This document shows positions 5,125 through 27,433 of a DNA stretch of 64,000 nt, one piece after another (positions within the stretch are counted from its first letter, which is position 1; every line of letters begins with the position of its first letter). The DNA is from Marinoscillum furvescens DSM 4134 (GTDB taxonomy: Bacteria; Bacteroidota; Bacteroidia; Cytophagales; Cyclobacteriaceae). The stretch is taken from positions 124,001 through 188,000 of the forward strand of contig NZ_QREG01000004.1 of assembly GCF_003386095.1 (NCBI RefSeq). The letters are read 5' to 3'. The notes beneath the pieces were generated by a model. That model was not told the origin of the DNA, ran no database searches, and saw nothing but the letters and a program-made list of their open reading frames with translations. Made by a program: the position numbers and the translations under genes.

Positions 5125-5161
5125 CCAAGGTAGAGCGGGGGAGTGTGGTGTGGTAGGACGG
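5125..5161 (-). promoter_or_regulatory. Putative phage late promoter, tail operon
   Basis: On the minus strand CCGTCCTACC (5161-5152) is followed after exactly 19 bp by TACCTTGG (5132-5125), one mismatch from the Bacteroidota box TAnnTTTG. It lies just upstream of the tape measure gene. Five other gene blocks carry the same arrangement. Confidence 0.65.
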
Positions 5162-5165
5162 GAAA

Positions 5166-5525
5166 TTAAGCTGCCTTCAGCGGCTCTTTTATACCACTTA
5201 ACACTTCCTGACTGATCTGATAGCCAATGGCTCCGTATAGATCATACAGTCGGCCATAGAAGGTTTTGGAGTACCATTTCTTTGGTTTTCGCGCTTTCCT
5301 GCCTTTGTCAAGATCCAGACTACCACGAGTAGACATCCCCAGCGACTTGCCGCGACCAACTCCCATATCTACATATCTTCCATACGTGAGCATGGTAAAC
5401 TCCCCCTCGAGGTATCCTTCACCTTTGGAGCGTAGCTCCTGGTGCAGCTGCTTGCGTAGCTCGTGTGTCACGCCAATGCCCTGACGGACCAGCTGCTGGA
5501 TTAATAAGCCCTCAGTCTTATTCAT
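5166..5525 (-). CDS. Tail completion / HK97 gp10-like protein
   Basis: This 119-residue basic protein contains YGRYVDMGVGRGK (residues 49-61), which resembles the RxVDxGxxxG signature of HK97 gp10-like neck or tail-completion proteins, followed by a Lys/Arg-rich linker and an amphipathic C-terminal helix. The position directly before the tape measure fits a head-tail joining role. The family assignment is by resemblance only. Confidence 0.55.
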   Translation of the reverse strand: MNKTEGLLIQQLVRQGIGVTHELRKQLHQELRSKGEGYLEGEFTMLTYGRYVDMGVGRGKSLGMSTRGSLDLDKGRKARKPKKWYSKTFYGRLYDLYGAIGYQISQEVLSGIKEPLKAA

Positions 5526-5573
5526 CCAACGGCGAAAAAGTGCGTATATGTGGGATTGAGCTTCGATTACTGA

Positions 5574-6056
5574 TTAGGTAAGAGGTTCCCAGTCGTTTTC
5601 GTCATAGACCAGCTGGTCATTGGCATTGTCGGAGACTGTAAATGTGCAGAAGCATCCGAACCACTTGCTGTACTCTGGGCCTACTTTCATGTAATCTACA
5701 CCATCGATATTACCGAATCTAAACAGTCCTTCCTGGTTGAGTCTTTCGTGATACACTTTGCCCAGAATCTTTAGTGCGGCGGTTTTGGCTTGATCATAGA
5801 CGGCATCTTCAGCTTCCCAGTCGTTGTTGGATACATGACTAAAAATGAAGAATCCAAATTTCTGTCCATCGCGAATGTTTTCATTGCTCTGTCCGGAAAG
5901 GCCTCCCTTTGGTTCATCCATGACCAGGTAGAGGCTTGATTTGTCCAGGTTGGATACTTCTTTTTTGAAGTGGTCAATGTTGTGAAAAAAGCCTGAAAGC
6001 ATCTTCAGGCGATTGCCTACATCTTTAAACCAGTTGGTAGCGTCGAGTGCTTTCAT
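5574..6056 (-). CDS. Phage structural-region hypothetical protein
   Basis: This 160-residue soluble alpha/beta protein has no recognised motif. It overlaps the upstream small membrane-protein gene by 4 bp. The position between connector genes and the tape measure, and the size, would suit a tail terminator or joining protein, but this is inference from synteny. Confidence 0.55.
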   Translation of the reverse strand: MKALDATNWFKDVGNRLKMLSGFFHNIDHFKKEVSNLDKSSLYLVMDEPKGGLSGQSNENIRDGQKFGFFIFSHVSNNDWEAEDAVYDQAKTAALKILGKVYHERLNQEGLFRFGNIDGVDYMKVGPEYSKWFGCFCTFTVSDNANDQLVYDENDWEPLT

Positions 6057-6268
6057 TTCTTAGTGGGAAATTTTAGTTTGAGATAGCGGGTGAGAAAGAA
6101 GGTGCCAAGGGTGATTACAAGTGATGTGATGACGCTGATCATGCCATTGAGAAGTTTGTCTTGCCAGGTTTGAATATAAACCATGATAACACCGGTACCA
6201 GATCCAGCCACTGCAGGCACATAGTCATGAATGATGGTGAGTAGTTTGACAATTTTATCGTTTGTCAT
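6053..6268 (-). CDS. Small membrane protein, holin-like
   Basis: This 71-residue protein has two predicted membrane helices (about 15-33 and 40-61) and a basic C-terminus (RYLKLKFPTKK). This is the size and layout of class II holins. It lies one gene downstream of the amidase endolysin, separated by the 274-residue protein gene. A second holin candidate exists at 12425-12823, so which one forms the lesion cannot be decided here. Confidence 0.5.
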   Translation of the reverse strand: MTNDKIVKLLTIIHDYVPAVAGSGTGVIMVYIQTWQDKLLNGMISVITSLVITLGTFFLTRYLKLKFPTKK

Positions 6269-6271
6269 TGG

Positions 6272-7096
6272 TTATTTCCTTTTGCTTTCTTCGATTGATT
6301 TGTTGAGATCGTAGAGTGCCACATCAGCATCTACCATGGAAATTTTCTCCATGTTGAGCGCCCCGCCGGCCATGGATCTGAGCGCATCTATCCAATTGCC
6401 ACCTCCGGATCCAGTCTCACCACTAAATACGTGATTGTATCGCTCGACCTTAATGGCTCTGCAGCTGATGTAGAAGATCAGGATGGCGTATTTTATATTG
6501 TCAGGTATTTGGGCAATGATTTTTTCAGCACGATAAATGACCGTATTGTCATTGTATACTTCGCGAACGTCTCCATTCCAGGTGGACGTATTGCTAATGA
6601 TTTGCTTGTGTCTGTATAATACTGCTATCAGACGGTTAAGCGATTGCATGCGTAATGGAACATTTGTGTAGTTCTTTCGGTACGCCAGGTAATACGTTTC
6701 CGCTTTGATGAACTCCATGAATACCATTTTTTTACAACTGTCTGGTGGGCCGTATAGTCTTTCACTTTTGCGGATGGTACGAGGAATTGTAATCACAGGG
6801 ATCAAATTGCGAGTGAGGGAGTACGACTCAGGGGTAAGTATGAAATCAGCTAATAATCGGGTGTCGGCCATGAAATCAATCTTATCCTCATGGCTGGTTT
6901 TGAGCAATAGGTTCCAGGCGAGCCACCAATGCTTTCTAATTTCCAGGAGGCACATGATGATTTTGAAGACTGCCTCATTCGGATGGATATTGGCATGCAA
7001 TAATCCTGCGATGGTTATCAGCTGGTTTGGTTTGAGGTCATTCCAGGTACCAGGGATGTTGTCAAACTTTTTTCCTTTGAAATAGAGGGCGCTCAT
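6272..7096 (-). CDS. Phage hypothetical protein (274 aa)
   Basis: This mainly helical protein is rich in Tyr, Arg and Ile, with no recognised catalytic motif. It begins MSALYFKGKKFDNIPGTWNDL and its ATG overlaps the amidase stop by one base. The conserved-looking position between amidase and tail genes suggests a virion or assembly role. No better assignment can be made. Confidence 0.55.
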   Translation of the reverse strand: MSALYFKGKKFDNIPGTWNDLKPNQLITIAGLLHANIHPNEAVFKIIMCLLEIRKHWWLAWNLLLKTSHEDKIDFMADTRLLADFILTPESYSLTRNLIPVITIPRTIRKSERLYGPPDSCKKMVFMEFIKAETYYLAYRKNYTNVPLRMQSLNRLIAVLYRHKQIISNTSTWNGDVREVYNDNTVIYRAEKIIAQIPDNIKYAILIFYISCRAIKVERYNHVFSGETGSGGGNWIDALRSMAGGALNMEKISMVDADVALYDLNKSIEESKRK

Positions 7097-7602
7097 TATA
7101 GGGCTAACTGATTAAAAATATCACAATACTCTATTTCGGCATCAAAGCAAGGGCATTGTTTCATGAATTCCCATGGTTCAATGATCCCATCTCCGTCAAC
7201 ATCTGGAGAGAAATCTCTATGCCCTTTTATTGTGATATGATCAATGGGCTGGTAAAGCTCTAAGACTTTCAATACGTAAACTATAGTTGAGACAATGGCC
7301 GATTTCTGTCTATTTGTTCTAGTGTCCTTGGCGTCACTTGCTTTATTTGGATTTCCTCCAGAAACAACCCCCCCAGAATAGCAAATACCAACTGAATCTG
7401 TATTGTGGCCATAAATATGAGCGCCAATTCTCTCTATAGGTCTAATCTCATAAGGCATGCCACTATTGGTAATTAGATAATGATATCCCCCCGGAGAATT
7501 TATTCCTCTTTTTAAGTGCATTGCTTCTAGCTGCTTAGGACCAAAGTACACGTCTTCTGGTGTGGCTGAACAATGAATGATGATCTTATTTATTCGTCTC
7601 AT
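7096..7602 (-). CDS. N-acetylmuramoyl-L-alanine amidase (endolysin)
   Basis: This 168-residue protein is a PGRP/amidase_2 enzyme related to T7 lysozyme. It cuts the bond between N-acetylmuramic acid and L-alanine in peptidoglycan. Zinc ligands can be placed at His10 (IIIHCSAT), His128 (KGHRD) and Cys150 (QCPCFD); Tyr40 (GGYHYLI) fits the catalytic tyrosine. There is no signal peptide, so it needs a holin to reach the wall. It overlaps the upstream gene by 4 bp. The length is normal for the family and all key residues are present. Confidence 0.93.
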   Translation of the reverse strand: MRRINKIIIHCSATPEDVYFGPKQLEAMHLKRGINSPGGYHYLITNSGMPYEIRPIERIGAHIYGHNTDSVGICYSGGVVSGGNPNKASDAKDTRTNRQKSAIVSTIVYVLKVLELYQPIDHITIKGHRDFSPDVDGDGIIEPWEFMKQCPCFDAEIEYCDIFNQLAL

Positions 7603-8576
7603 AACATCGTGAATATTGGTGAGTCTGAATCGTTTTCGAGATGATCAGAGGGCTTTTCACCCTCTACATACAGATCGCTGTTTTTGTAGAGCGGATAGTC
7701 GTCAGCATTGGTGTAAAGAAAATCGGCGAGCTGCTGAAGGTACTTTTCGGCCTTGGCAATGTGCAAATCCCTCCGGGATCTCAGGCGACTTTGCTCAGCT
7801 GCAGTCACGGACTCAGTACTGCCACTGGTAGAGTTTTCCAGCAGGTGAAAGCCCTGGTCATCGCTGATCATTGAGTTTTCAATGATGAAATCTGCATAGC
7901 TAAAATGAGCAATTGCACCCCTGATGAAGTCAAGCAACTTTTCGTTGTTAGCGGAAAGCTCACCACTTGCAAGCCATTCACTTTTAAGTGAATCATAAAG
8001 ATCAGGTCCGAGAGTTGCTTTGACCTGTGATCTTTCCACCTCGCGCATCAATGGCTCCATGGATAGGAAAGTCAGTCTTCGAGATTTGATATTGACATAC
8101 TTCTGGAAGATGACAGCCGAAGTAATGAACAGTTCGCGAGTATTGGCAAAGTTCCAGGCATAAATCCCCGTATTTTCTTCCAAAAACTCAATTAGATCAT
8201 CGAGACCGTCCAGCCCGGCATGAGCCAGGTTACCACTGAGTGCTTTGAAGCTCCACTGAGTGACAGGCTTTTTCTCATCTGAAGAGTATTGGCTGATGCC
8301 ATCTTCTTCGATAGTCATGTTTGCTTTTGGGATATACATCCAAATAGCAATGTTTGCCAGCGCTGGATGTACATATTCGAGCAGTTCTTTTTCCGATTCG
8401 TCTGTGGTACCATCTTCATACGCCAGTGCCAGGCTATTCATCAGCGTGGGCCCAAGAATCCATTTTATCCATCGGAGCTGAGCTCTTCGTATATCGGCAT
8501 TCAGTTTGTCGATGGAGAAAGATTTCGCTAAGGAAACCTGAGATTTGATATCCTCTTCGTTAATCAGTAGTTTCAT
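7599..8576 (-). CDS. Head-tail connector-like phage protein
   Basis: This 325-residue helical protein is built from two similar halves, each with a helix carrying ILGPTLMNSL or TLGPDLYDSL followed by a stretch ending in an aromatic cluster. This looks like an internal duplication and resembles the Bacteroidota phage family annotated as DUF6712, which sits next to portals. It overlaps the portal gene by 17 bp and the amidase by 4 bp. A connector or adaptor function is inferred from position. Confidence 0.6.
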   Translation of the reverse strand: MKLLINEEDIKSQVSLAKSFSIDKLNADIRRAQLRWIKWILGPTLMNSLALAYEDGTTDESEKELLEYVHPALANIAIWMYIPKANMTIEEDGISQYSSDEKKPVTQWSFKALSGNLAHAGLDGLDDLIEFLEENTGIYAWNFANTRELFITSAVIFQKYVNIKSRRLTFLSMEPLMREVERSQVKATLGPDLYDSLKSEWLASGELSANNEKLLDFIRGAIAHFSYADFIIENSMISDDQGFHLLENSTSGSTESVTAAEQSRLRSRRDLHIAKAEKYLQQLADFLYTNADDYPLYKNSDLYVEGEKPSDHLENDSDSPIFTML

Positions 8577-9909
8577 CAGGGAGAGTGGTTTCGCGTTGTG
8601 AAGGGGTTACTGCATTGAGCATTTGCATGAACGATCTGGAAAATCGCCAGATGATCATTTGTTTGCTGGAATTCCATCCGTTGAACCAGCTGATATAATC
8701 GTAAGGTCTGAGGACAATGTCTTGATGTGGTTTCATGAAGCTCACGAAAATGTTATAAGCCTCACGTTTGTCACTTCCCGAAAGGTTTGTTTTACCTCCC
8801 AACTGAAATCCAAACAGGGAGGGGTCGATTCCTGCCGCAGCAAACAGCTTGATCGACGCCTCGGTACTATCCTCGATGTAGATTCCTTGCTTCAGCTTAT
8901 CATCGATTGGTAGGATCTCAACACCAGGATAAGCCTTTAGTGTGTCAGGATCGGTCTTGTAGCCAGTGGCGATGGTTTTTCCGGCATTCTCAGGGCCAGA
9001 GAGCCACTTTGTCATTGAATCAAATTCCGCTTTTTTCAATGCCTTTTTCTTTTTAGCATCAAATGTTTCCCACTCAGGCCACTTCCATGACCAGTAATAG
9101 TCTGGAAATCGAATGTGGTATTTGATGGTCATTTGATTTTTCATGACCGCTGCCTTCAGCTTCGGAATGTCATTTGCCAGCTTCAGCCAGCCATTGTGCC
9201 TAATGCCATTCCAGATGGGAAGCTGGTAATATATTTTTCCGGAAGGATAGGATAGTGGGTATACAAATCGAGGGCCGTCATTGCGCTTGGCAAGTCTTTC
9301 AGGCATGTCTACCCACGGATCTAAAAGTGGTCGCTTGAGCGTGTACTCATCATCAGCTGTAGCTCTTTCCGCCCAGTTCGCATTGATGAAGCATTTATCA
9401 AGCTTGCCTGAATCTTTCTGAAGCGCATACCGACAGTGGCCAGCTGGGTGTGCGGTTAACCATACTATTTTGGTTTTAGGCTTATTGACAATGATTTCGG
9501 GGAAAACATTGGCATATTTATAGAAGTCTACTGTAGCCTGGAGAGGATAGCGGGCGTTTCGAAATAAGAACTGCTCGATCTCAAAAATCTTCTTATTCTC
9601 AGTATCTCCCGTCTCGAAGTTGTAAACTGAATATTCAACGCCACCACCATACAAAGCCCTGGCATTCATATCCAGTGAGCGCCAGAGATCTGTATTTAAC
9701 TCAAGGTCCTTGTCTACTTGCTGTGGCCAGTCGTTACCATCTCCCCAGTAGGCAATCTTGTAATCATTGGGTTCATTCGTTTCTTCTCGCTTAGCTGTTC
9801 GAGGTGCGACAGCAGTTGATGAAGTACCTGTTTCATAAATGGCTTTTTCACTTACCATTATTAGCGCTTCATCGCGCTCGTGGACGACTTCCAAAGATGA
9901 CTCACTCAT
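8560..9909 (-). CDS. Phage portal protein
   Basis: The product is about 449 residues from ATG 9909 (MSESSLEVVHERDEAL). I reject the longer frame from 9993 because this ATG overlaps the upstream stop by 4 bp. Portal-like features are an N-terminal YWGDGNDWPQQV segment, a central beta-rich part, and a C-terminal helical stretch with SIKLFAAAGIDPSLFGFQLG and GGKTNLSGSDKREAYNIF, as in portals that discuss lattice-contacting stem and wing regions. It forms the dodecameric ring through which DNA enters the capsid. Confidence 0.75.
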   Translation of the reverse strand: MSESSLEVVHERDEALIMVSEKAIYETGTSSTAVAPRTAKREETNEPNDYKIAYWGDGNDWPQQVDKDLELNTDLWRSLDMNARALYGGGVEYSVYNFETGDTENKKIFEIEQFLFRNARYPLQATVDFYKYANVFPEIIVNKPKTKIVWLTAHPAGHCRYALQKDSGKLDKCFINANWAERATADDEYTLKRPLLDPWVDMPERLAKRNDGPRFVYPLSYPSGKIYYQLPIWNGIRHNGWLKLANDIPKLKAAVMKNQMTIKYHIRFPDYYWSWKWPEWETFDAKKKKALKKAEFDSMTKWLSGPENAGKTIATGYKTDPDTLKAYPGVEILPIDDKLKQGIYIEDSTEASIKLFAAAGIDPSLFGFQLGGKTNLSGSDKREAYNIFVSFMKPHQDIVLRPYDYISWFNGWNSSKQMIIWRFSRSFMQMLNAVTPSQRETTLPDETTD

Positions 9910-10142
9910 TGAACTAATTCTCCGTTCAGTTCTACAATTAGTTTTACATGCACCGTTCGATGTTGACCATCTTGAAATAATGGTCTGCACCATCCTCCCT
10001 GGTCGAATGTCTTACCAGTTAGTCGCACCTGATTGCCAGTGATGTATTGACCACCAGTACCACGAGACTTGGAACAGGTAAAGAATCCAATATCGAATGG
10101 TTCTCCACTCTCCATTCTTTCTATAGCTTGTTTTAAATGCAT
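9906..10142 (-). CDS. Small protein at head of portal operon
   Basis: This 78-residue protein begins MHLKQAIERMESGEPFDIGF and contains FFTCSKSRGTGG. It is followed by the portal gene with a 4 bp overlap and preceded by a phage promoter motif, so it heads the portal transcript. No family recognised. Confidence 0.6.
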   Translation of the reverse strand: MHLKQAIERMESGEPFDIGFFTCSKSRGTGGQYITGNQVRLTGKTFDQGGWCRPLFQDGQHRTVHVKLIVELNGELVQ

Positions 10143-10146
10143 GGTA

Positions 10147-10183
10147 CAAACAAACAGACAAGCACCCGTATGGCATAGGACAG
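10147..10183 (-). promoter_or_regulatory. Putative phage late promoter, portal operon
   Basis: The minus strand reads CTGTCCTATG (10183-10174), then 19 bp, then TTTGTTTG (10154-10147). It is a weaker match in the upstream box (7 of 10) but keeps the 19 bp spacing shared by the other five sites. Confidence 0.5.
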
Positions 10184-10259
10184 GAAATCAGCAGATCACA
10201 TAAGGCTGTTTTTTGTATGCAATTGCATAGGCTCGACAGTGCGGGGCGTGCAGGGCGCT

Positions 10260-10370
10260 GTGTTAAAAAATGTTTTGAATTTCAGGATATAGAGTAAAGT
10301 GTCAGAAAATCAACGTGTTATAAATAAGACTTTTAAAAATATGGGATATATAATGTGTCATAAATACAAC
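10260..10370. repeat. Four 16-bp operator-like direct repeats
   Basis: The gene-free stretch 10143-10415 holds four copies of a 16-mer close to GTGTYATAAATANAAC, at 10260-10275 (weakest), 10299-10314, 10315-10330 and 10355-10370. Copies 2 and 3 are adjacent; the outer ones lie about 40 bp away. Copy 3 is itself nearly palindromic. The array lies between a possible DNA-binding protein gene and the portal promoter, which suggests binding sites for a phage regulator. Confidence 0.55.
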
Positions 10371-10415
10371 GCAGAGGCCAAAACACATCTTTTTAGAGGT
10401 GGAGTCAACCGAAAT

Positions 10416-10736
10416 TTAGTCTTCTGAAAGCAGTGGAGTGAGGAAATCTTTCAAGTCCTGGTCGAAATGAGGGTCTGTGAGAAGGTGATGAAGCTTCTTT
10501 CTGGTATAAGCAATCTTGGATGACTGCTTCTGGTGAATCCAGGTGTGATGATGGACTGAAGTGTAACCAGCCAGCTGCAGAACCTCATGCATTTTGTTAA
10601 TGGATGGCCACTGGCCCTGATGACGAATACGGGAACGAATTGAGCGTACAGCATTACCAGACATGCCCAACTGGTGATGGATACCTTCTATGCAAATGAC
10701 TGAAAGGAATAGGGCTTTGGTTTGATGAACTTTCAT
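10416..10736 (-). CDS. Possible helix-turn-helix regulator
   Basis: This 106-residue basic protein is rich in His and Arg. Residues 24-62 (GMSGNAVRSIRSRIRHQGQW, then a short helix) look like a helix-turn-helix with a loop, but I cannot assign a family. The operator-like repeat array lies directly downstream. It overlaps the upstream tiny gene by 4 bp. A control function is a plausible inference, not established. Confidence 0.5.
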   Translation of the reverse strand: MKVHQTKALFLSVICIEGIHHQLGMSGNAVRSIRSRIRHQGQWPSINKMHEVLQLAGYTSVHHHTWIHQKQSSKIAYTRKKLHHLLTDPHFDQDLKDFLTPLLSED

Positions 10737-10882
10737 TTATGTGTATCAAATAAACGCACTGAAAAAGAATGTGTAGACAAGCAACCAACTACAAGTAATT
10801 TAATGGAGTCTCCTGATATATCATGACCATCAAAAACGAGGCGACCTGACTGATCTACAAAGTAAACTGGAGACTTATCCAT
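10733..10882 (-). CDS. Tiny phage protein (49 aa)
   Basis: The 49-residue frame begins MDKSPVYFVDQSGRLVFDGH and ends FDTHK. Its TGA overlaps the ATG of the following gene by 4 bp. The frame is beta-rich in look, and the translational coupling at its 3' end supports it being real. Function unknown. Confidence 0.5.
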   Translation of the reverse strand: MDKSPVYFVDQSGRLVFDGHDISGDSIKLLVVGCLSTHSFSVRLFDTHK

Positions 10883-10909
10883 GATTCAATTTGTATGATT
10901 CGTAGAAAC

Positions 10910-11832: not shown

Positions 11833-11834
11833 TT

Positions 11835-12424: not shown

Positions 12425-12823
12425 TTAAGTTTTGATGAGTTTGATTAGCTTTTTGAGGCCTTCGGCTATGAATGAGCCGAAGTAGCCTATGACTGCTGCA
12501 CTACCGATCTGATTGGCGCCCTGAGGTAGTCTGGTGGCGATATCTCCCAGCCATGCCTCGAGGTTTTCCTCGCCCAGGTAGAGAAATAGCAAGCTGGCCA
12601 GGATGTGGCAAAAGATGTTGTCCCACTTGTAGAGTATCCAGATGCGGATCCACTTCCTATTAAAGTCTCGGAGCCTGGTTTGCTTCTCTGCGGTGGAGAT
12701 GTCTTTGTCTATGCTGAGCTCATTGTCTATCTCATCTTTATCTGAGCTGAAGCGAAAGAACCAGAACATGAGTATGCCGAAGAGGCAGACATACAGGTCC
12801 TGGGCTGAAAGGTGATCGAACAT
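12425..12823 (-). CDS. Holin-like membrane protein
   Basis: This 132-residue protein has membrane helices at about 9-25, 69-84 and 104-121, a charged cytoplasmic-type loop (SSDKDEIDNELSIDKD) and a basic C-terminus. It is followed by the u-spanin-like gene and preceded by a phage promoter motif, so it heads a lysis transcript. Several Bacteroidota phages carry holin-like proteins of this size. The pore-forming role is inferred. Confidence 0.6.
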   Translation of the reverse strand: MFDHLSAQDLYVCLFGILMFWFFRFSSDKDEIDNELSIDKDISTAEKQTRLRDFNRKWIRIWILYKWDNIFCHILASLLFLYLGEENLEAWLGDIATRLPQGANQIGSAAVIGYFGSFIAEGLKKLIKLIKT

Positions 12824-12847: not shown

Positions 12848-12884
12848 CGAAGGTGGAGGATTCGGAGGGGAAAAGGTAGGACGG
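12848..12884 (-). promoter_or_regulatory. Putative phage late promoter, lysis genes
   Basis: The minus strand reads CCGTCCTACC (12884-12875), 19 bp, then CACCTTCG (12855-12848), two mismatches from TAnnTTTG. The upstream 10-mer is identical to three other sites. Confidence 0.55.
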
Positions 12885-13924: not shown

Positions 13925-15643
13925 TCAACCTGTCATGGTATCTGTAAACTCTGACTGATGGCGGATGTCTGACTCCAGGAGTCCCCACCAGAGGGTGTCC
14001 ATGGCTTCTGTGACGTGCGGCGCCTCTACCTGGGGAAAGTTTTTGTCGCGCTCTTTGGACTTGTCTTTTTCGAATCCATTTTTACCGCTGATTTTCACCT
14101 CAGTGCCCTGTATGGCGACAATGGCTTCCTGATGCGTGGATTCGTTGACCATGAACTTCCAGCCGTCTTCGCGCTTCCCTTCCAGGAGTGAGCCCCAAAA
14201 CTCATACTTGGTGCTGTGAAATGGTGTGCGGCCGATGTACTTGGAGATGACTTTGCAGTCTAGCTTCCGAAGGATGGATTTGATCTCTTCGGCAAAATTG
14301 AGGTCTTTGGAGGCATTGTCACCTACGGATGTGTGATCATACCAAAATACGACTGTTGGGTTTTTTTTGAGGTGGTACTTGTGGTAGTCGTACCACTTTT
14401 TGATGAGGTGTCGGATCTTGAGTGGGCGCTCCACGTACATGGCGTTGAGCTGGCGGGCTTCTTTGCGGGCCTTGTGGATCTGGCCGGTGACGATCCAGTT
14501 GATGGCGGCATTGTGATCGCAGGAGATATGCAATGGCCGGGATGCGTCATAGTCTGAGTACCAGCGGCAATCTGCTGTGGCTGCCTGGCTGTAATCGTCT
14601 AGCTGGAGTTTGTCCAGGTAGGAGTAGTTGGTAGCTGTGTAGCAGTGGGTGTCCGGATCGAACATGGAGTAGAAGCCATTTTCGACCTGGGCGATACGCT
14701 CATTGAGTACTGATAACCTAAAGACGTACTCTGAAAGGTTGCGCTTAAAGTTTAGTATGGCGTCTATACCCAGGGCATCTACATTGTCCAGGGTGGAAGC
14801 TTCTGAGACGAATACGGTGCCTTTGCGGAGCTCGTTGAGACCGGACTCAAAATCATCTATGAGGCGCTGGACCTTGCGGCGCTTTTTCTCCTGATACTCG
14901 GACACTCCTCCGGTGTATAGCTTCTGATTGATCTCCTCTAGCTGCTGCTCAAGCTCCTGTACTCTTTGCCTGAGCATCATGATGCCATCGATGACTTCCC
15001 TGTCTACCTGATCGTAATAATGGAAGAGCCATCGCCCCCTCTGATCGCGAGGCATGTCTGTGGTGAGCAGGATGGAGTGATGCTGGCTGAGGTGGCCAAA
15101 GTGCTCGGCATTGCCCCGGTTGGCATTGACTACCTCGGCGAAGTTGTCTTCTTTGAAAAAGCGAGCTTCATCTCCGTAGATATAATCCAGGTCTGAGGCG
15201 TTGGAGATGCCTACACGATCGAGGGAGATGAGCTGCTGTCCGGAGCCGTTGAACCAATGGATGAAGTACTTAGGATCTGTGACTGGTAGAAATGGTTTTT
15301 CACGTTTGAGCTCCTTTGGGGCAAACTTGCGGACCCAAAAGTGGGTGTCCTGGATGTAGCCATAGCGCTGCCAACCTTTGACGAGCTTGGGGATGATGAA
15401 CATGAGCATCTTGTCAAAGGTGACTGAGACGATGCCTCCCAGGGACTTGGGCATGGTGAGGGCATTGCGCAGGGTGAAGTCTGTGCCTGGCCCCTCGGTC
15501 TTACCGGTGGCACGTCCCCAGATACAAATGGTGACCTGTGCCCAGATCATGTTGATCAGGATCTGGGGGATGTTGTGGTGGATGCGTTTCAACCCACCCC
15601 CAGCCCCTCCCGGGAGGGGAGTTTCGGTTGGTTTATTCTTCAT
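13925..15643 (-). CDS. Large terminase subunit (ATPase-nuclease)
   Basis: This 572-residue DNA-packaging motor has a Walker A motif GRATGKT at residues 43-49, a Walker B with catalytic acid in DLDYIYGDEA (Asp158, Glu159), and a nuclease start at LHISCDHN. A coiled-coil-like insert lies near residues 225-275 (MLRQRVQELEQQLEEINQKL). Length is normal. Residues 9-14 are encoded by a palindromic repeat (15604-15619) that appears to have entered the reading frame and gives a Gly/Pro-rich N-terminus. It overlaps the upstream gene by 11 bp. Confidence 0.92.
   Translation of the reverse strand: MKNKPTETPLPGGAGGGLKRIHHNIPQILINMIWAQVTICIWGRATGKTEGPGTDFTLRNALTMPKSLGGIVSVTFDKMLMFIIPKLVKGWQRYGYIQDTHFWVRKFAPKELKREKPFLPVTDPKYFIHWFNGSGQQLISLDRVGISNASDLDYIYGDEARFFKEDNFAEVVNANRGNAEHFGHLSQHHSILLTTDMPRDQRGRWLFHYYDQVDREVIDGIMMLRQRVQELEQQLEEINQKLYTGGVSEYQEKKRRKVQRLIDDFESGLNELRKGTVFVSEASTLDNVDALGIDAILNFKRNLSEYVFRLSVLNERIAQVENGFYSMFDPDTHCYTATNYSYLDKLQLDDYSQAATADCRWYSDYDASRPLHISCDHNAAINWIVTGQIHKARKEARQLNAMYVERPLKIRHLIKKWYDYHKYHLKKNPTVVFWYDHTSVGDNASKDLNFAEEIKSILRKLDCKVISKYIGRTPFHSTKYEFWGSLLEGKREDGWKFMVNESTHQEAIVAIQGTEVKISGKNGFEKDKSKERDKNFPQVEAPHVTEAMDTLWWGLLESDIRHQSEFTDTMTG
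15604..15619. repeat. CCCCTCC/GAGGGG palindrome inside terminase gene
   Basis: The perfect 16-bp palindrome CCCCTCCCGGGAGGGG lies in the first codons of the terminase gene, followed by a C-rich arm towards lower coordinates. It is in frame and encodes Pro-Leu-Pro-Gly-Gly-Ala. Related palindromes are at 12381, 21645, 22538 and 24016. Confidence 0.8.
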
Positions 15644-16265: not shown

Positions 16266-16977
16266 CTTTCCAGTGGTTTTCTAGTTCGTAGGTTTCGGGT
16301 GCAACGGGAGCCGAAAGGATTTCTGTGGCTTTGTCCAGGACTGCCTGGTAGAATGGGAGCTTGTCTTTGGGCAGCTTGCCGTTTTTGGCACGGGAGATGT
16401 TGGACTTGTAGCTGCTGTGGATCCGGGCTATATCCATGTAGGTGATGGCAGACTTGAATATGGCGCTGACCTGGCTATCGAGGCCCTGAGGGTGACGATC
16501 GAATAGGGCTAGTGGTGTGAGGTCTAGCTGGCCGGTTTCGCTGTGGTGGTGGATGACCTTCCAGCAGGCGTTGATCTCGTCGTGCTTTTCCAGGATCTCT
16601 CTGCAGACGGGGTAGGCCCTGGCAGGTGGTACGTCTCTGAGAAACTGGAGCTGCCCTCTGAGGTAGTCTTGCCGGCGTACGGCGTGATTTCGCCGGGTGA
16701 TGACTTTATCCAGGTCGGGGTTTTCGGGTTTTTGACCTGCATCATTTTTTATTTGAACCGGGGTCTCCCCCTCGAGAGGGTATTGCTCTACGAGCTGCTG
16801 GAGCTCGCCGAGGAGTTTTTTTCGAAAGAAGAGTGTCTCGCCGGTGGCTAGTAGTCTGGCCAGGGAAGGATTGGCTGTAGACTGCTGAAACAGGGAGAGT
16901 CCGGAGTGGTACCAGTCGCCCTGATCTGGCGAGGATAGGAAGTCTCTAATCTGTAGAATAAGCTTCTGATCGATCAT
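16258..16977 (-). CDS. Phage packaging-operon protein (239 aa)
   Basis: This first gene of the packaging transcript encodes a soluble helical protein with no recognised catalytic motif. It is rich in Arg/His around residues 90-105 (ITRRNHAVRRQDYLRGQL). A phage promoter motif lies 5-41 bp upstream. It overlaps the small-terminase candidate by 8 bp. A role in packaging or DNA binding is inferred only from context. Confidence 0.55.
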   Translation of the reverse strand: MIDQKLILQIRDFLSSPDQGDWYHSGLSLFQQSTANPSLARLLATGETLFFRKKLLGELQQLVEQYPLEGETPVQIKNDAGQKPENPDLDKVITRRNHAVRRQDYLRGQLQFLRDVPPARAYPVCREILEKHDEINACWKVIHHHSETGQLDLTPLALFDRHPQGLDSQVSAIFKSAITYMDIARIHSSYKSNISRAKNGKLPKDKLPFYQAVLDKATEILSAPVAPETYELENHWKDE

Positions 16978-16981: not shown

Positions 16982-17018
16982 CAAAGATCGATCGTGCAAT
17001 TGCGCTGTGGTAGGACGG
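16982..17018 (-). promoter_or_regulatory. Putative phage late promoter, packaging operon
   Basis: The minus strand reads CCGTCCTACC (17018-17009), 19 bp, then GATCTTTG (16989-16982), one mismatch from TAnnTTTG. It lies immediately upstream of the 239-residue gene. Confidence 0.65.
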
Positions 17019-21181: not shown

Positions 21182-21207
21182 ATCCTGACTTGGTGTGAAG
21201 TCAGGAT
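21182..21207 (+). terminator. Terminator of lipoprotein gene
   Basis: ATCCTGACT pairs with AGTCAGGAT around eight bases, starting 4 bp after the stop codon. The downstream T run is weak. Confidence 0.6.
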
Positions 21208-21233
21208 CTGTAAATAAACTTATAAGTGATTGC

Positions 21234-21617: not shown

Positions 21618-21644
21618 AGTCTTGAATGTTTTGAGTGTCTGAAT

Positions 21645-21660
21645 CCCCTCCCAAGAGGGG
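21645..21660. repeat. CCCCTC/GAGGGG palindrome
   Basis: CCCCTC and GAGGGG around CCAA lie in the 51-bp gap between two minus-strand genes, preceded by AAT and followed by ACT. Copies with nearly the same flanks lie at 22538 and 24016. Confidence 0.75.
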
Positions 21661-21668
21661 ACTATTAA

Positions 21669-22040
21669 TTATGAGAGGGCGATGGACAGCTTTACTTTGA
21701 CGTAAAACTTGTCACTGGCCTCTGCGAGATAAATGTCGTCTGCAGCAGCTCCACGCTTGATGGAGAACACCTCAGCGTTGTAGTCTATGGTGTTGGCCGT
21801 GGCGAGTCCCCAGCTGGTGATGAGCGCATCTATGGCTGTCTCCAGGGCAGCGACCATACCTTCAAAGGCCGTGACTTTGTTGGCATTGGTATAGGTACCA
21901 GCTGTGAGCTCAAAGTCTTCTTCCTCTTCTATGGTAGGGGCTGCTATGGCCGCATTTTTGGCCGTGGGTATGCTATGCCCAGAAGGAGCGCTAAGGATCG
22001 TGCTGGTGTTTATATATACTCTTTTGGTAACGATGGCCAT
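21669..22040 (-). CDS. Phage structural-region protein (123 aa)
   Basis: I start at ATG 22040 (MAIVTKRVYINTSTILSAPS); the longer frame overlaps the upstream gene. It has a Glu run (TIEEEEDFELTAG) and a C-terminal KFYVKVKLSIALS strand. Size and beta-rich look would suit a capsid decoration or minor tail protein, but no family is recognised. Confidence 0.55.
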   Translation of the reverse strand: MAIVTKRVYINTSTILSAPSGHSIPTAKNAAIAAPTIEEEEDFELTAGTYTNANKVTAFEGMVAALETAIDALITSWGLATANTIDYNAEVFSIKRGAAADDIYLAEASDKFYVKVKLSIALS

Positions 22041-22053
22041 GAGCAGAAGTGTT

Positions 22054-22506
22054 TTAAAGCTTGGGTTTGATAAATATCCTGGGTGCCAGGGTAAAGGTGT
22101 CTGTGGCGGTGGCGGCTTTGTTGTACCAAAAATTGAGATAACCGACGCCTCCAGGTACTGTGATGGTCTGCTCTTTGTACTCGAGGGGCCCAGGATGATC
22201 AAACTGCAGTAGGGTGTCATTGCTGATTTTGCGTCCGAGATCTGCGGTGGCTGCATCTGGTATAAGTGCATGGTATACCTGCAGTACGGAGAGGCTGTCT
22301 TCTGAGGCACCTTTGGAGTAGAGTACGCCTACGGTGAAGGTGGTGGCATTGCCAAAGTACTGGAAGTTGAGATCCTGCAAGCTGGTATCTGCCGCAATGG
22401 ACGTGTAGGAGTCTGCATTTCCGATTTTTTGCGGCTGGGCTGTGAGCTCAGCAAAGGAAATGAGCATGATCAAGGATAAGAATAGAGCGTTTAAGATAGC
22501 TTTCAT
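22054..22506 (-). CDS. Secreted phage protein (150 aa)
   Basis: I start at ATG 22506, where a clear signal peptide begins (MKAILNALFLSLIMLISFAE, cut after LTAQ). The mature part is beta-rich with aromatic and Thr-rich strands. It is the second secreted product within the capsid transcript. It may act on the envelope during infection or lysis, or be cargo; nothing in the sequence decides. Confidence 0.55.
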   Translation of the reverse strand: MKAILNALFLSLIMLISFAELTAQPQKIGNADSYTSIAADTSLQDLNFQYFGNATTFTVGVLYSKGASEDSLSVLQVYHALIPDAATADLGRKISNDTLLQFDHPGPLEYKEQTITVPGGVGYLNFWYNKAATATDTFTLAPRIFIKPKL

Positions 22507-22537
22507 TTGGATTGTGGTTTTGGTAAATACACTTAAT

Positions 22538-22553
22538 CCCCTCACAAGAGAGG
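22538..22553. repeat. CCCCTC/GAGAGG palindrome
   Basis: CCCCTC and GAGAGG around ACAA, flanked by AAT and ATT, lie in the 50-bp gap between genes. This is a slightly degenerate copy of the palindrome at 21645 and 24016. Confidence 0.65.
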
Positions 22554-22556
22554 ATT

Positions 22557-22886
22557 TTAGGGTTTTGATTTTTTGGTTTTTGTGGCTTTGGAATCATCGG
22601 CCTGAGAGGCTGATGCAAGGAGCGCGTCTACATTGTGCACTTTTTTGGCTGGCTTATGCACCTCCTGATTCTGCTGTGACTCTATCTGTAGTGAATCATG
22701 GATTTCTTTCTTCACATCCTCTGATACCGGAACCAGGCGCTTGTATCCCAGGGCATAGAGCTTGTCGGCTTCTGCGGCTGTGATGGTACGGAAGTCTACC
22801 CTAAAGCCTCGGTACTCTACCTCACCTGGCAGTATGCCTACTAGGCGGTAGCGGTCTTTGATATGAGATGAAATGGTACGCTGCAT
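22557..22886 (-). CDS. Phage hypothetical protein (109 aa)
   Basis: The compact N-terminal domain (residues 1-60, with VEYRGFRVDFRTITAAEADK) is followed by a Lys/Ser/Ala-rich tail ending KATKTKKSKP. It follows the tail-tube candidate by 62 bp. It may be a tail-assembly or chaperone protein; no family recognised. Confidence 0.5.
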   Translation of the reverse strand: MQRTISSHIKDRYRLVGILPGEVEYRGFRVDFRTITAAEADKLYALGYKRLVPVSEDVKKEIHDSLQIESQQNQEVHKPAKKVHNVDALLASASQADDSKATKTKKSKP

Positions 22887-22948
22887 AAATTTTGTGATTT
22901 ATGACAGGTTGCCTAATGGATGACAACCTGCCAAAATTTTATTTCTGA

Positions 22949-23482
22949 TTATGCTGCCGGGGTGAGAAGGATCTCTCCTTCATACACCGGAGCGATTCTG
23001 CCGATGGACTTAAATGTAAGCGTGGAACCTTTAAAATCACTCACAGCTGTACCTGTGGTGGTTTCTCCTGAATCCAGGTGTGCAGGGACGTCTTCCCATC
23101 CGAGCTGGCGTACCTGGCCGTCTAGTTCTTTGACGAGGACTATGAGGTCATCGTTTTTGAACTCTTCGAGTATCCCCAGCATGAGTTTTTTGTTGCCCGG
23201 CTGAGCGATGGTGGCCAGGTTTTCATAACTATGGGAGTTTCGCTCACCGACCAGGTTGGATTCGAGCTGGCCTTTTTCGAGGGTACAGCTGATCTTTTTG
23301 AAGCACTTGCCGCTGGCAAACACGTGATCTGTGGCGATGGTGACTTTAGCTTCCAGGTTGGCCGGAGCATCAGGAATCCATCTGATGGTGGTGAAATCTG
23401 ACTTTCGGGCTACATAAATGACGGTGGCAAGACCGCCATCATTATTCTGGCCGTTTGGCCATACAACATCTTCGAGATCCAT
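22949..23482 (-). CDS. Major tail tube protein candidate
   Basis: This 177-residue beta-rich protein starts MDLEDVVWPNGQNNDGGLAT. Features seen in tail-tube proteins are an early FTTIRW strand, an FKKISCTLEKGQLESNLVGE hairpin, an LIVLVKELDG strand and a C-terminal Thr-rich part after KGSTLTFKS. It lies two genes after the major capsid protein, the usual place for tube genes. The assignment rests on pattern and position. Confidence 0.5.
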   Translation of the reverse strand: MDLEDVVWPNGQNNDGGLATVIYVARKSDFTTIRWIPDAPANLEAKVTIATDHVFASGKCFKKISCTLEKGQLESNLVGERNSHSYENLATIAQPGNKKLMLGILEEFKNDDLIVLVKELDGQVRQLGWEDVPAHLDSGETTTGTAVSDFKGSTLTFKSIGRIAPVYEGEILLTPAA

Positions 23483-23485
23483 AGG

Positions 23486-23977
23486 TTACTCCTCTATTTC
23501 AAGAATTGGTGATTTGATACGTAACAGGTAATCGGTGAGCCCGACTGATTCAGGTTTGCCACCTTTGCCAGGGACTGTGATTTCACGATTTTCGGTGAGA
23601 TCTTCCCGAGAGTAGGTGGTGCCTTTGACGCTGAACTTAGGGATGCGCTGCTCGATCTTCTTTCCCTTATGGGTGAAGAAGTTTCCGGTCTGCGTTCCGT
23701 TTTCTTCGTCCATTTTTTCAATGGAGGCGTTTTGCTCAGTGATGATGGCCTGAGCCGTGTCGTAATCTTCCTTCAGTTGCTTGATTTCAGCATCTTTGGT
23801 CTCTACATCGGAATTGGCTTGATCCAAAGCACTCTTTAATTGAGTGATGGTCTCAGCCTGAGATTCGTTTACCTTCTCAAGATCCTGAAATGCCTGGACG
23901 AGCTTTTTGTAAGCTTTGACCAAATCTTTTGGATCCAGGTCCTGAGGTTTATCTATTACAAGATTTTCGTTTGCCAT
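23486..23977 (-). CDS. Coiled-coil virion-region protein
   Basis: I start at ATG 23977 (MANENLVIDKPQDLDPKDLV, 163 residues); ATG 24010 adds 11 residues, and the frame reaching 24286 overlaps the capsid gene and is rejected. Residues 20-90 form a long heptad coiled coil rich in Gln, Glu and Lys; the C-terminal half is globular with FFTHKGKKIEQRIPKFSVKG. It may be a head-tail or head-completion protein. Confidence 0.55.
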   Translation of the reverse strand: MANENLVIDKPQDLDPKDLVKAYKKLVQAFQDLEKVNESQAETITQLKSALDQANSDVETKDAEIKQLKEDYDTAQAIITEQNASIEKMDEENGTQTGNFFTHKGKKIEQRIPKFSVKGTTYSREDLTENREITVPGKGGKPESVGLTDYLLRIKSPILEIEE

Positions 23978-24015
23978 GAGTTTGTTTTTTGTGGTATAGA
24001 ACCGACTCATAAAAT

Positions 24016-24031
24016 CCCCTCCGGAGAGGGG
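24016..24031. repeat. CCCCTC/GAGGGG palindrome
   Basis: CCCCTC and GAGGGG around CGGA, flanked by AAT and ACT, lie between the capsid gene and the coiled-coil gene. It is the third near-identical intergenic copy in this transcript. Confidence 0.75.
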
Positions 24032-24053
24032 ACTCGATAGAGTGTTTGAAAAA

Positions 24054-25118
24054 TTATGCTTCGGTGTAGTGGTCTGCGATATCCTGAGCGGTGAACGTGG
24101 TGTCGTGCTCAGAGGTGATGACGTATTCCGGTACATCGAAGGTGATGACGTAGCTCCAGTTGTTGAGCAGGTGTACCTGTCTCTTTTCCTTTTGCACGTC
24201 AAACCTGCTGCTCTTATTGGATCTAGAAGGTTTGATTCGGTTTTTGGGAGTGGTGCCCCAAACCTGCTCAGAACCTTCCATGGCATCTGACTGCTTCACC
24301 TTGATGGTGGACTTGTCAATAGCCTCGAGATCGGATTCCTGACGGTAGTACAAGTTGTACTTTTCGCGACGGCCATCGACGTATCTGTCTCTAAGCGTCT
24401 CACTCATAAAGAGGAAGTCGATTTTCTTTCGCAGCTCTTTAGGGATCTCTTTGACGAATGCCTCAATTTGGCCGCAGAAGGTGACAGGGTCTATAGACCA
24501 GGCGCCCACGGTGATAGGTGTGACTCTACCAAGCGCGACCATCCGTGCGATCTGATGCTTGATACCGTCCATAGAACCATTGGCGGGCTGCACAATGTCA
24601 TTGGAAGAAAACTGCCTGGTGAATACAGCTCCAGCCTGGGAGACTGTTTTTGCGGCGTTGAACTCGGTGATCTTCCAGCCCTTATAGGCTACCTCGGAGA
24701 TGAAGTCTTCTTCAGCCTGAGGGAGCAGCTGCTCTGTAATCAACCATTTGATGAATCCCCACTTGGATCGATCGGCTTTTTCGATTTCTGTGAGGAACCC
24801 AAGATACGATGGCCACAGCGTGTCTGGTGTGCTGGTAGCGTCGATCTTGAATTCGCCGAGCTCCTGCTGCCACGGCGTGAATGTGGACTTGTTTTTGGCC
24901 GTGAACGGGATACTGAAGGCCTGCAGCACGCTATCTATGGTAGCATATACAGACTTGTAGTGGCTTTCATCCCAGGGAATCTGTCTGAAATACATGGACA
25001 GATCGTCCATTTTAAACAGTTTCATTTTGATATCACGAGCGGTCTGCCCACGATCAACATACTCTTTGCCCCATTCGGCGACAATCTGATCAATATCGAT
25101 ATCTGAGTAGGTAGTCAT
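24054..25118 (-). CDS. Major capsid protein
   Basis: This 354-residue protein follows the protease/scaffold gene by 3 bp. N-terminal helices (residues 1-60) are followed by an E-loop-like SKWGFIKWLITEQLLPQAEE stretch, a P-domain-like helix with a VDGRREKYNLYY motif and a final beta strand EYVITSEHDTTF. Gene order (protease, capsid) and length fit an HK97-fold shell protein. Direct sequence family not recognised. Confidence 0.7.
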   Translation of the reverse strand: MTTYSDIDIDQIVAEWGKEYVDRGQTARDIKMKLFKMDDLSMYFRQIPWDESHYKSVYATIDSVLQAFSIPFTAKNKSTFTPWQQELGEFKIDATSTPDTLWPSYLGFLTEIEKADRSKWGFIKWLITEQLLPQAEEDFISEVAYKGWKITEFNAAKTVSQAGAVFTRQFSSNDIVQPANGSMDGIKHQIARMVALGRVTPITVGAWSIDPVTFCGQIEAFVKEIPKELRKKIDFLFMSETLRDRYVDGRREKYNLYYRQESDLEAIDKSTIKVKQSDAMEGSEQVWGTTPKNRIKPSRSNKSSRFDVQKEKRQVHLLNNWSYVITFDVPEYVITSEHDTTFTAQDIADHYTEA

Positions 25119-25121
25119 TGA

Positions 25122-26360
25122 TTAGTCTCCTAAGTGTTCGTTTGCGGTTTTGACTGAGTAAGGCACCTCAGGCTGATTGGCTGTTTCGAGCTCTTCTTTG
25201 CCAGAGGGGTTTTCTGGGTTTTCGGGATCAGCAGAAGCTGACTCGAGCTCCTGTACTTTATCCTTAAGTGACTGGATTTCAGTATTGGCCTGATCCAGTT
25301 CCGATTGCTTGGCATTCTCGGCTGCTGACTTGGCATCCTCTACGTGCTGATCAAGCTCTTCTTTGGTGAATTTTTCATTTGCACCGGTGAATTGCTGGAT
25401 CTCTGATTTTACTTCTGCCAGCTCTTCAGCAGAAGGAGTTTCTTTTCCAAGAATCTCGAGTGATCGTTGAAAATTCATAGTTTCTTTTTTGGTTTCCTGA
25501 TTTGGGGAGTTGGTTGAAGATTTCTTGCTAAAGAATTTTTTGATGCTATTTAGCAGTCCAGTGTGTCCTTCGCTCATTTCCTGAGAGGGAGCAAAGACCT
25601 CAGCATGACGAGAATGTAAGAATTCAAAGAGTTTCTCTGGGTTGTCTCGAATGAAATCGTCAATGTTAGGGTTATCATTTAAGAACTCGGTGGCAATCAC
25701 TGAGAATTTGTCGCTATTGAAGTTTGCAGAGAAGAGTTTATCGGTGGCCGCTCCCTGGTCAACTATATCACAGAAATAGATGTCATCCATCTCTACAAAC
25801 AGATCCTTTTTAGGATCATAGTGAGTCATTTCCCCGTTTTGATTTCTGCAGCGATTCCATATTCCTTTTTTGTCGCAATACCAGATGTTGACTCTTTTAT
25901 TGTCTTCATCGTATTGGTATTCGTAGAGGGGTTTGAAGACAATGCTGCACATGATTGCTTCAGGATCTTCTGATGCCTGGCTTATCATCCAGTCTTTCAT
26001 TCCTGGATGAGTAGGAGAAAGGTTTGCCGAATCAAACAAGTGCAGGTCAGCGACCATTTTATCATCTTCGACTCTGAAGTTTTTGAATCGACCCATCTCT
26101 GATCCGAGCGTTTCATTGCTCATGGATGGATGGCCGAATCTGGCTTTCATTCCTTTTTTCTTGAAATTTTCGTTGGCTTTTTTGATGCCATCCTCAATAA
26201 AGGATTGCTCTAAATGTACCCCATGACCTAAAGCCTCACCAACCTGACACATGATTACGCCAGATAATACGCCATTTTCAGCATCTATATTAGAAGTGCC
26301 AAATGTCACTCTTTCAGATTTGAACCAGCGATTTGTCGGTTTGTGGGATTCCTTTGCCAT
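25122..26360 (-). CDS. Prohead protease fused to scaffold
   Basis: This 412-residue protein has an N-terminal HK97-type serine protease (about 1-190) with His in KARFGHPSMS and Ser in EAIMCSIVF. The C-terminal part (about 295-412) is a Glu/Gln-rich coiled coil typical of scaffolds. An in-frame ATG at 25478 (MNFQRSLEILGKE), preceded by AAAAAGAAAC, could start a separate 118-residue scaffold protein, as in lambda C/Nu3. It processes the prohead. A phage promoter motif lies directly upstream. Confidence 0.78.
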   Translation of the reverse strand: MAKESHKPTNRWFKSERVTFGTSNIDAENGVLSGVIMCQVGEALGHGVHLEQSFIEDGIKKANENFKKKGMKARFGHPSMSNETLGSEMGRFKNFRVEDDKMVADLHLFDSANLSPTHPGMKDWMISQASEDPEAIMCSIVFKPLYEYQYDEDNKRVNIWYCDKKGIWNRCRNQNGEMTHYDPKKDLFVEMDDIYFCDIVDQGAATDKLFSANFNSDKFSVIATEFLNDNPNIDDFIRDNPEKLFEFLHSRHAEVFAPSQEMSEGHTGLLNSIKKFFSKKSSTNSPNQETKKETMNFQRSLEILGKETPSAEELAEVKSEIQQFTGANEKFTKEELDQHVEDAKSAAENAKQSELDQANTEIQSLKDKVQELESASADPENPENPSGKEELETANQPEVPYSVKTANEHLGD

Positions 26361-26368
26361 TATGTAGG

Positions 26369-26405
26369 CAATGGTATATATATATAGGTGTGGGTGGTAG
26401 GACGG
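26369..26405 (-). promoter_or_regulatory. Putative phage late promoter, capsid operon
   Basis: The minus strand reads CCGTCCTACC (26405-26396), 19 bp, then TACCATTG (26376-26369), one mismatch from TAnnTTTG. It lies 9-45 bp upstream of the protease start; the spacer contains a TA-dinucleotide run. Confidence 0.65.
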
Positions 26406-26410
26406 AAAAC

Positions 26411-26899
26411 CTAAGTGAGATTAACCAATGGGGGTTTGTGAGGTGTGGAGCCGGTGAAGTAGAAGGTGTATCCATTGAAGTCCATCATTTTCATGCCTGT
26501 GCGATAGTCTTCATTTTGGCGCATGGGAGATTCGGGTGTGCCGATTAGTTTTTTAGCGCCGTTTCGGTCTTCTATATATAATACGAGTCCACGATCGGTT
26601 ACTTTCTCCAGCTGGGATCGTATGTCTGCCCTGTCTTTGTTGAACCGAGCCTCTAGGGAGTTGTTGGTTTGCTTATTGCCAGCGGATATTTCAGACGGAG
26701 CCTGTAACTGAGGAGTAAGCAGGATAGGAGAGATGTCATGGAAGTGATTGTCGATGACGCTTTGAGGCACATCTATGGTGTCTGGATCTTGCCAGAGTGT
26801 CATCCAGTCGATAAGATCTTCCAGATCCTGGGCAATGGCGTATTTGATGACCTTGAGGCCTCCATAATTATCTGTGTAATTGTTGCTGATACTGGCCAT
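26411..26899 (-). CDS. Phage virion-region protein (162 aa)
   Basis: The frame begins MASISNNYTDNYGGLKVIKY and has a beta-rich C-terminus with DYRTGMKMMDFNGYTFYFTG. A 5' overlap of 32 bp with the upstream gene suggests co-translation. Start motif and position before the protease resemble Bacteroidota phage structural genes, but no family is named. Confidence 0.55.
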   Translation of the reverse strand: MASISNNYTDNYGGLKVIKYAIAQDLEDLIDWMTLWQDPDTIDVPQSVIDNHFHDISPILLTPQLQAPSEISAGNKQTNNSLEARFNKDRADIRSQLEKVTDRGLVLYIEDRNGAKKLIGTPESPMRQNEDYRTGMKMMDFNGYTFYFTGSTPHKPPLVNLT

Positions 26900-27392
26900 A
26901 CTCTACAAGTGATTTGATTTTGTTCCAGGTTTTGATGCTTTGATCTCCGGAGTAGATTGATGTTCCTTTAAGTTCCTGGTATTCTTCTGATCGCTGCCAT
27001 TTTTTGTAGGCCGCCTCAGTGGAATACTCTGATTCGTAAATTTCCATTTTACGGAGGAACTCTCGTAGGGCAGTTTGGTGTGGAAGGATGTTGTGCCTGG
27101 CGACAGTATATTGGATCATGTCTCGGTAAAAGCACTGGGTAAAAAATCTCATGAGGGCATATAGCCTATCGAGTCGCTGCTGGCGACTGAGTATCCTGAG
27201 TTGTTGTTTTTGATTAATCTTGTCAAAGAAATAATTGTGGATACGTTTGCTCGAGCGTTCGGTAATTGCCGGAATGAGTATGGTGCCTTTTATATGGAGT
27301 TCATTTTGAGCTGTGAACCCCTGAGTAGACTTGAGGTACTTATATAACCATACGTTGATGTAGACTGTGGTTATCTTCCAATTTTGATCCAT
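26868..27392 (-). CDS. First gene of capsid block (174 aa)
   Basis: This helical, Gln/Tyr/Arg-rich protein begins MDQNWKITTVYINVWLYKYL. The middle carries basic repeats (QQLRILSRQQRLDRLYALMR). It is the most upstream phage gene at the right end and is preceded by a promoter-motif variant. No family recognised. Confidence 0.5.
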   Translation of the reverse strand: MDQNWKITTVYINVWLYKYLKSTQGFTAQNELHIKGTILIPAITERSSKRIHNYFFDKINQKQQLRILSRQQRLDRLYALMRFFTQCFYRDMIQYTVARHNILPHQTALREFLRKMEIYESEYSTEAAYKKWQRSEEYQELKGTSIYSGDQSIKTWNKIKSLVEYGQYQQQLHR

Positions 27393-27396
27393 GAAT

Positions 27397-27433
27397 GCAA
27401 CTTACAGAAATGAAATGGCGTATCGTAGGACAT
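27397..27433 (-). promoter_or_regulatory. Putative phage promoter, weak copy
   Basis: The minus strand reads ATGTCCTACG (27433-27424), 19 bp, then TAAGTTGC (27404-27397). It matches the consensus at seven of ten upstream positions and about four of six box positions, with the shared 19-bp spacing. Confidence 0.4.

Follow-up and report, generated by a model that had tools for sequence, protein, structure and literature searches.

Repeated GTCCT elements at a fixed distance from the host -7 box as probable late promoters of a Marinoscillum furvescens prophage and other Bacteroidota phages

The window analysed here, a stretch of 64,000 nucleotides from the genome of Marinoscillum furvescens DSM 4134 (contig NZ_QREG01000004.1, positions 124,001 to 188,000), contains part of a prophage that reaches about 17.8 kb beyond the left edge of the window and ends at about 27.7 kb within it. 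The prophage is encoded almost entirely on the minus strand and has a large recombinase, similar in type to phage integrases, at its left end. Ahead of its gene blocks lie six putative late promoters, each composed of a 10-mer, either CCGTCCTACC or a variant, and of a box resembling the host sequence TAnnTTTG:

5125-5161, minus strand, putative late promoter 1: CCGTCCTACC at 5152-5161, 19-bp gap, box TACCTTGG at 5125-5132; precedes the tape-measure gene at 2226-5105 (PHROGs).
10147-10183, minus strand, putative late promoter 2: CTGTCCTATG at 10174-10183, 19-bp gap, box TTTGTTTG at 10147-10154; ATG at 10142, 39 nt from the G of GTCCT and thus at the predicted +1; portal block.
12848-12884, minus strand, putative late promoter 3: CCGTCCTACC at 12875-12884, 19-bp gap, box CACCTTCG at 12848-12855; first ATG at 12823, 59 nt from the G.
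16982-17018, minus strand, putative late promoter 4: CCGTCCTACC at 17009-17018, 19-bp gap, box GATCTTTG at 16982-16989; ATG at 16977, 39 nt from the G and thus at the predicted +1; packaging block with terminase.
26369-26405, minus strand, putative late promoter 5: CCGTCCTACC at 26396-26405, 19-bp gap, box TACCATTG at 26369-26376; ATG at 26360; followed by a gene at the protease position and then the capsid gene.
27397-27433, minus strand, putative late promoter 6, the weakest: ATGTCCTACG at 27424-27433, 19-bp gap, box TAAGTTGC at 27397-27404; ATG at 27392, 39 nt from the G; precedes the gene of a candidate activator.

All six bipartite sites of the original prediction were thus recovered with their 19-bp spacing, four with exact copies of the 10-mer (at 5152, 12875, 17009, and 26396) and two with variants (at 10174 and 27424), and the window contains no further exact copy. 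The boxes match five of the six fixed letters of TAnnTTTG at 5152, 10174, 17009, and 26396, and four at 12875 and 27424. Only five exact copies of CCGTCCTACC occur in the 5.96-Mb genome. Four of them sit within 21.3 kb on one strand of the prophage, and the fifth lies within an open frame of 487 codons. If one copy per 5.94 Mb is taken as background, this arrangement has a Poisson probability of about 7e-12, so the clustering is beyond chance. When CCGTCCTACC was scored with up to two mismatches, no enrichment was seen (35 matches versus 29.6 expected). The evidence is therefore carried by the exact copies and the fixed spacing.

A capsid search of 295 host-family genomes retrieved five other prophages. 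One of these (G284) contains GTCCTCTG and, 19 bp on, TAGGTTTG, followed after four bases by an ATG; a second copy precedes the gene just upstream of the capsid gene. From these elements it follows that the conserved core is GTCCT, located 22 bp from the box. Hence the earlier description as a 10-mer plus N19 holds for spacing and box, but its outer letters (CC...ACC) are a flank private to this phage. On the sense strand of the prophage, GTCCT followed by a box with at least four of the six letters occurs seven times at 22 bp, whereas 45 other spacings average 0.96 matches and none exceeds 3; on the antisense strand there are three such matches versus a mean of 1.36. The seventh sense match (around 2336) lies within the tape-measure gene and was excluded from the promoter set. 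If at least five box letters are required, this prophage and the stretches of its five relatives together have 20 sites at 22 bp on the transcribed strand, versus at most 5 at each of the remaining spacings between 0 and 59 bp, and one site at 22 bp on the opposite strand.

The original prediction had suggested looking for the motif in related prophages. It is present in many Bacteroidota phages and so is not peculiar to this prophage. A terminase search among annotated phages returned 48 records, chiefly of Porphyromonas, Flavobacterium, Cellulophaga, and Polaribacter phages. Late-strand sites at 22 bp (at least four box letters) were found in six of the seven annotated records examined: six in Mea-Yong924-1, two in Leef (plus two on the other strand), five in Ingeline, five and four in two Porphyromonas gingivalis prophages, and five in a faecal phage. 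Mea-Yong924-1 (L032) is recorded as a Microcystis phage; its six GTCCT sites are accompanied by -7 boxes of the Bacteroidota type and its terminase is 38% identical to the one in the window, so that its host record may be wrong.

A larger test set consisted of the best 80 of 176 viral loci fetched with an alignment of three terminases; it includes this phage (L059) and several near-duplicates. Here GTCCT plus a box with at least five letters occurs 149 times at 22 bp, versus a mean of 3.2 and a maximum of 10 at 45 other spacings, and 66 of the 80 loci have at least one site. The opposite strand shows 7 sites at 22 bp versus 4.6, and perfect boxes number 36 at 22 bp versus 0.18 elsewhere. After removal of the near-duplicates and of this phage, 130 sites versus 2.91 remain, and 56 of 67 loci have a site. 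Almost all sites (139 of 149) fall outside long same-strand frames, as opposed to 155 of 333 control GTCCT, and the next recognised gene is mostly portal (38), protease (31), or a pre-terminase family (20). GTCCT and the box were selected for in compiling these 149 sites; the free positions are the flanks, the middle of the box, and the distance to the ATG. Among these, GTCCT is preceded by T at a frequency of 0.74 and followed by TT at 0.91 and 0.86, and the two middle box positions shun G (0.09 and 0.05). The box enrichment is confined to the fixed distance and G is avoided at both middle positions, as in a TAnnTTTG box at -7 relative to the predicted start. A TTTG element at -33 is absent: although GTCCT is followed by TT, a G comes next in only 0.09 of the sites.

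For each site, the first ATG that begins a frame of 50 or more codons was located and its distance counted from the G of GTCCT. This distance is exactly 39 nt at 42 of the 149 sites and 38-40 nt at 58, versus 4 of 333 controls, whereas 12 sites have no ATG in range. The modal gap between box and ATG is 4 nt, and at 67 of the 149 sites the ATG lies within 10 nt of the predicted start. A study on Flavobacterium johnsoniae places the transcription start 4-5 nt downstream of the box, whose G is at -5 (PMC6847099). Given this start position, the A of an ATG at 39 nt would be the predicted +1; of the six sites in the window, three show this exact distance. With the A at the predicted +1 at 42 of the 149 sites, many late mRNAs should be leaderless. 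According to the same study, 87% of the predicted F. johnsoniae transcripts have leaders longer than 10 nt (PMC6847099).

Hosts hardly use the element, because exact sites in 60 host-family genomes number 148 at 22 bp versus 121 at 21 bp; with the count so near this control, host use is unsupported. Many matches at the control spacing read GTCCTTT...AAGGGCTTTTTTTTATTTTTG and resemble intrinsic terminators whose sequence imitates the pattern. The original prediction had counted many copies at random places in the host genome as evidence against it. These were looked for and did not appear (five exact 10-mers in the host genome, 148 versus 121 sites in the 60 genomes). The full 10-mer CCGTCCTACC was also considered as a general element and rejected: 141 of 196 host-family genomes have scattered copies, 0-11 each, and none of the places listed in these genomes shows a cluster like that of this prophage. 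DNA searches with an exact 17-letter pattern yielded 80 viral and 80 genome loci, which are the matches listed and part of the total. Of the 80 viral loci, fetched by the pattern alone, 74 hold gene families of these phages, and extra sites near the pattern number 50 at 22 bp versus 1.24. Among the 80 genome loci, 70 have Bacteroidota titles, 9 belong to other phyla, and 1 is unnamed. Relatives of these phages' genes are found at 30 of them. The remaining 50, as judged from their sequences, comprise 17 with a conserved operator before GlxA-like regulators, 4 Crp-like genes in Rufibacter, and others that are chance matches or unplaced. Extra sites near the pattern show no clear enrichment in the listed genome loci (7 at 22 bp versus a mean of 1.82 and a maximum of 7). 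In Mucilaginibacter, Pedobacter, Chitinophaga, and their kin, a conserved stretch like TTGTATAATTTATGTCCTTTGAGACA precedes the GlxA-like regulator gene; it probably acts as an operator for autoregulation and has no connection with the phage element. The loci of this type are:

L250, L251, L253, L257, L267, L276-L278, L282, L286, L289, L298, L300, L311, L316, L318, and L321.

The sixth site of the prophage precedes a gene placed before the late genes:

26868-27392, minus strand, candidate late activator: 174 amino acids, a divergent representative of an unnamed family of phage proteins that are about 155 amino acids long and have a predicted C-terminal helical DNA-binding-like domain.

This protein joined the family profile at an E-value of about 1e-2, and the order of its predicted elements is the same as in a typical family member. 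Among 48 loci reaching 9 kb or more upstream of the terminase gene, 44 encode the family. A GTCCT site follows the family gene in 42 of 47 loci, at a median distance of 550 bp, and a site within 150 bp upstream of the family gene's own start was seen in 1 of 47. Four prophages were found via the family alone; three contain 3-6 sites each, where about 0.1 is expected, and the fourth ends at a contig edge. The predicted model of a typical member has a predicted local distance difference test score of 95.3, and its C-terminal part weakly resembles helix-turn-helix and homeodomain domains. By its place, conservation, and fold, the family protein is the best activator candidate, and it may bind GTCCT. 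Two others were discarded, namely a 94-amino-acid protein beside the integrase (5 of 13 phages) and a gene annotated as LuxR (3 of 6 annotated phage records: Leef, Ingeline, and 6H). The former family (L006:3849-4133) adjoins the primase in some of the five phages that share it.

The sequences directly show the element, its spacing and strand, its location ahead of genes, its spread among phages, and the position and conservation of the family gene. They speak strongly for promoters, which would presumably be active in vivo. As a whole, the likely explanation is that they are the late promoters of a temperate tailed phage, read by a small phage protein together with the host polymerase. They would belong to a promoter class of many Bacteroidota phages, in which a rigid gap separates the host box TAnnTTTG from an element at about -39 to -33, either (T)GTCCTTT or a variant specific to the phage. 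The GTCCT element would be bound by a small phage protein that is produced ahead of the late genes and encoded here at 26868-27392, probably via the protein's C-terminal domain. Docked at this fixed place, this protein would recruit the host RNA polymerase along with its primary sigma factor, and the latter would read the -7 box though the TTTG element at -33 is absent. Transcription would often begin at or beside the A of the ATG and give rise to leaderless late mRNA. The phage comparison thus favours the earlier proposal that a phage factor replaces -33 recognition while the host -7 box and a fixed spacing are kept, with the product of 26868-27392 as the candidate factor.

Rather than acting as an ordinary activator that aids an intact sigma factor, the family protein might replace sigma domain 4, joining the polymerase and itself recognising the region from -39 to -33. 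This is improbable. The DNA-binding domains of TnsB, Sap1, and TnpE match the C-terminal part of the model as well as or better than sigma region 4 does, the likeness to the latter being weak; Pfam shows no sigma domain in 37 members; and a fixed spacing is also served by ordinary activators. A single marginal sigma match (E-value 0.0057) came from NCBIfam in the same 37 proteins, and nothing marks the protein of 26868-27392 as a sigma factor. It is rather improbable, too, that the promoter is real but read by another factor, be it a host regulator or a phage protein that escaped recognition, while the family protein acts otherwise early in infection. For many loci the early regions lie outside the stretches compared, and common descent could largely account for the joint divergence of element and protein. 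However, families at least as widespread in 13 phages are for the most part those of capsid, packaging, and tail proteins and of a primase, and hosts hardly use the element. That the element is an operator, an RNA leader signal, or a packaging site before the late genes is very improbable even though the same 8-mer belongs to the unrelated GlxA-type operator in hosts, since the -7 box, the avoidance of G in its middle (0.09, 0.05), the modal 4-nt gap to the ATG, and the strand bias fit transcription initiation, and an RNA signal upstream of +1 would be absent from the RNA.

A few phages use GTCTT, GTCGC, or GTCAC in place of GTCCT. Flavobacterium phage 6H has four copies of ATGTCTTA, all of them on the late strand; each precedes a late gene, and the box spacings are 21, 21, 22, and 21 bp. 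Five GTCGC sites occur in L066 (one without the shared flank), three GTCAC sites in L076, and two GTCGC sites in L056; those of L066 and L076 keep the 22-bp distance. In L066 and L076, a second GTC is located 12 bp upstream of the element. The two GTC steps 12 bp apart in L066, L076, and L056 could mean that two activator copies are bound. Flank identity is 0.533 within a phage (183 pairs) versus 0.392 between phages. Because flanks are more alike within than between phages, it looks as if each phage has its own element specificity, which may follow either the activator or shared ancestry. A late-transcription code across Bacteroidota phages, with a phage protein in the place of sigma domain 4 at -39 to -33, host sigma domain 2 on the -7 box, leaderless mRNAs, and GTCCT, GTCTT, GTCGC, and GTCAC variants that co-diverged with the protein, is a wider proposal that we regard as unlikely.

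Several results weigh against late promoters read by the family protein. Phage 6H has zero GTCCT sites at 22 bp, and the few sites of phage B40-8 (one) and hankyphage p00 (three) all have boxes with four of six letters. The variants of 6H, L066, L076, and L056 were found by inspection and not predicted. The correlation between element and activator was cleaner in its first version (37 loci) than in the wider one. Moreover, a profile search of solved structures gave no credible relative of the family, the best hit being a designed protein (E-value 0.011), and although Mor, MotA, and other folds do not appear in the structure lists, this does not count against those folds.

Among known systems, the late promoters Plys, PI, PP, and Pmom of phage Mu are activated by C. 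The prophage resembles Mu in having several late operons, each led by a repeated activator-type site with a host -10-type box kept, which would be served by host polymerase and a phage activator encoded before the late genes, here a candidate. It differs in its DNA element, phylum, and host box, and none of the 37 family members matches Mor/C in Pfam at an E-value of at most 0.01. The middle promoters of phage T4 combine a MotA box with the host -10. Here, likewise, a -10-type box is retained and a phage box stands in place of -35 at a fixed spacing, but box and distance are different, the genes are late instead of middle, and a MotA match is lacking in the same Pfam comparison. In the primary promoter of Bacteroidota, a TTTG element at -33 lies 19-21 bp before the box. 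This promoter, TTTG/TAnnTTTG, avoids G at the two middle positions of the box according to the study cited above (PMC6847099). The phage sites share the -7 box and this avoidance of G but carry GTCCT at a rigid distance in place of TTTG, and often have the ATG at +1. No prior description of such late promoters in Bacteroidota tailed phages was found among the matches listed in searches of open-access papers, or in passages of a hankyphage and a crAss001 paper. Tailed phages of Bacteroidota occur in guts, mouths, and the sea, and for many uncultured phages a promoter detectable from sequence would point to late operons, likely start sites, and a candidate regulator. It also opens two questions to experiment: by what means phages redirect the unusual primary sigma factor of Bacteroidota, and whether leaderless mRNA has a role in hosts without Shine-Dalgarno sites, whose transcripts mostly have leaders.

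The remaining recognised genes of the prophage in the window are as follows:

2226-5105: tape-measure gene (PHROGs match).
7096-7602: amidase, the sole lysis-family match among the proteins scanned.
8560-9993: portal (PHROGs match, weak).
13925-15643: terminase large subunit (tblastn to annotated phages).
24054-25118: capsid, groups with an annotated major capsid protein.
26411-26899, minus strand: gene after the candidate activator.

Of the gene-block labels given earlier, the lysis label after 12875 and the protease label after 26396 were not established. The block after 12875 has no lysis-family match among the proteins scanned, and the gene after 26396 is at the protease position, yet has no family match above the cut-off. 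The family of the gene at 26411-26899 groups proteins from 11 of the 13 phages compared, and its relatives in the G284 and G057 prophages are located immediately downstream of a GTCCT site.
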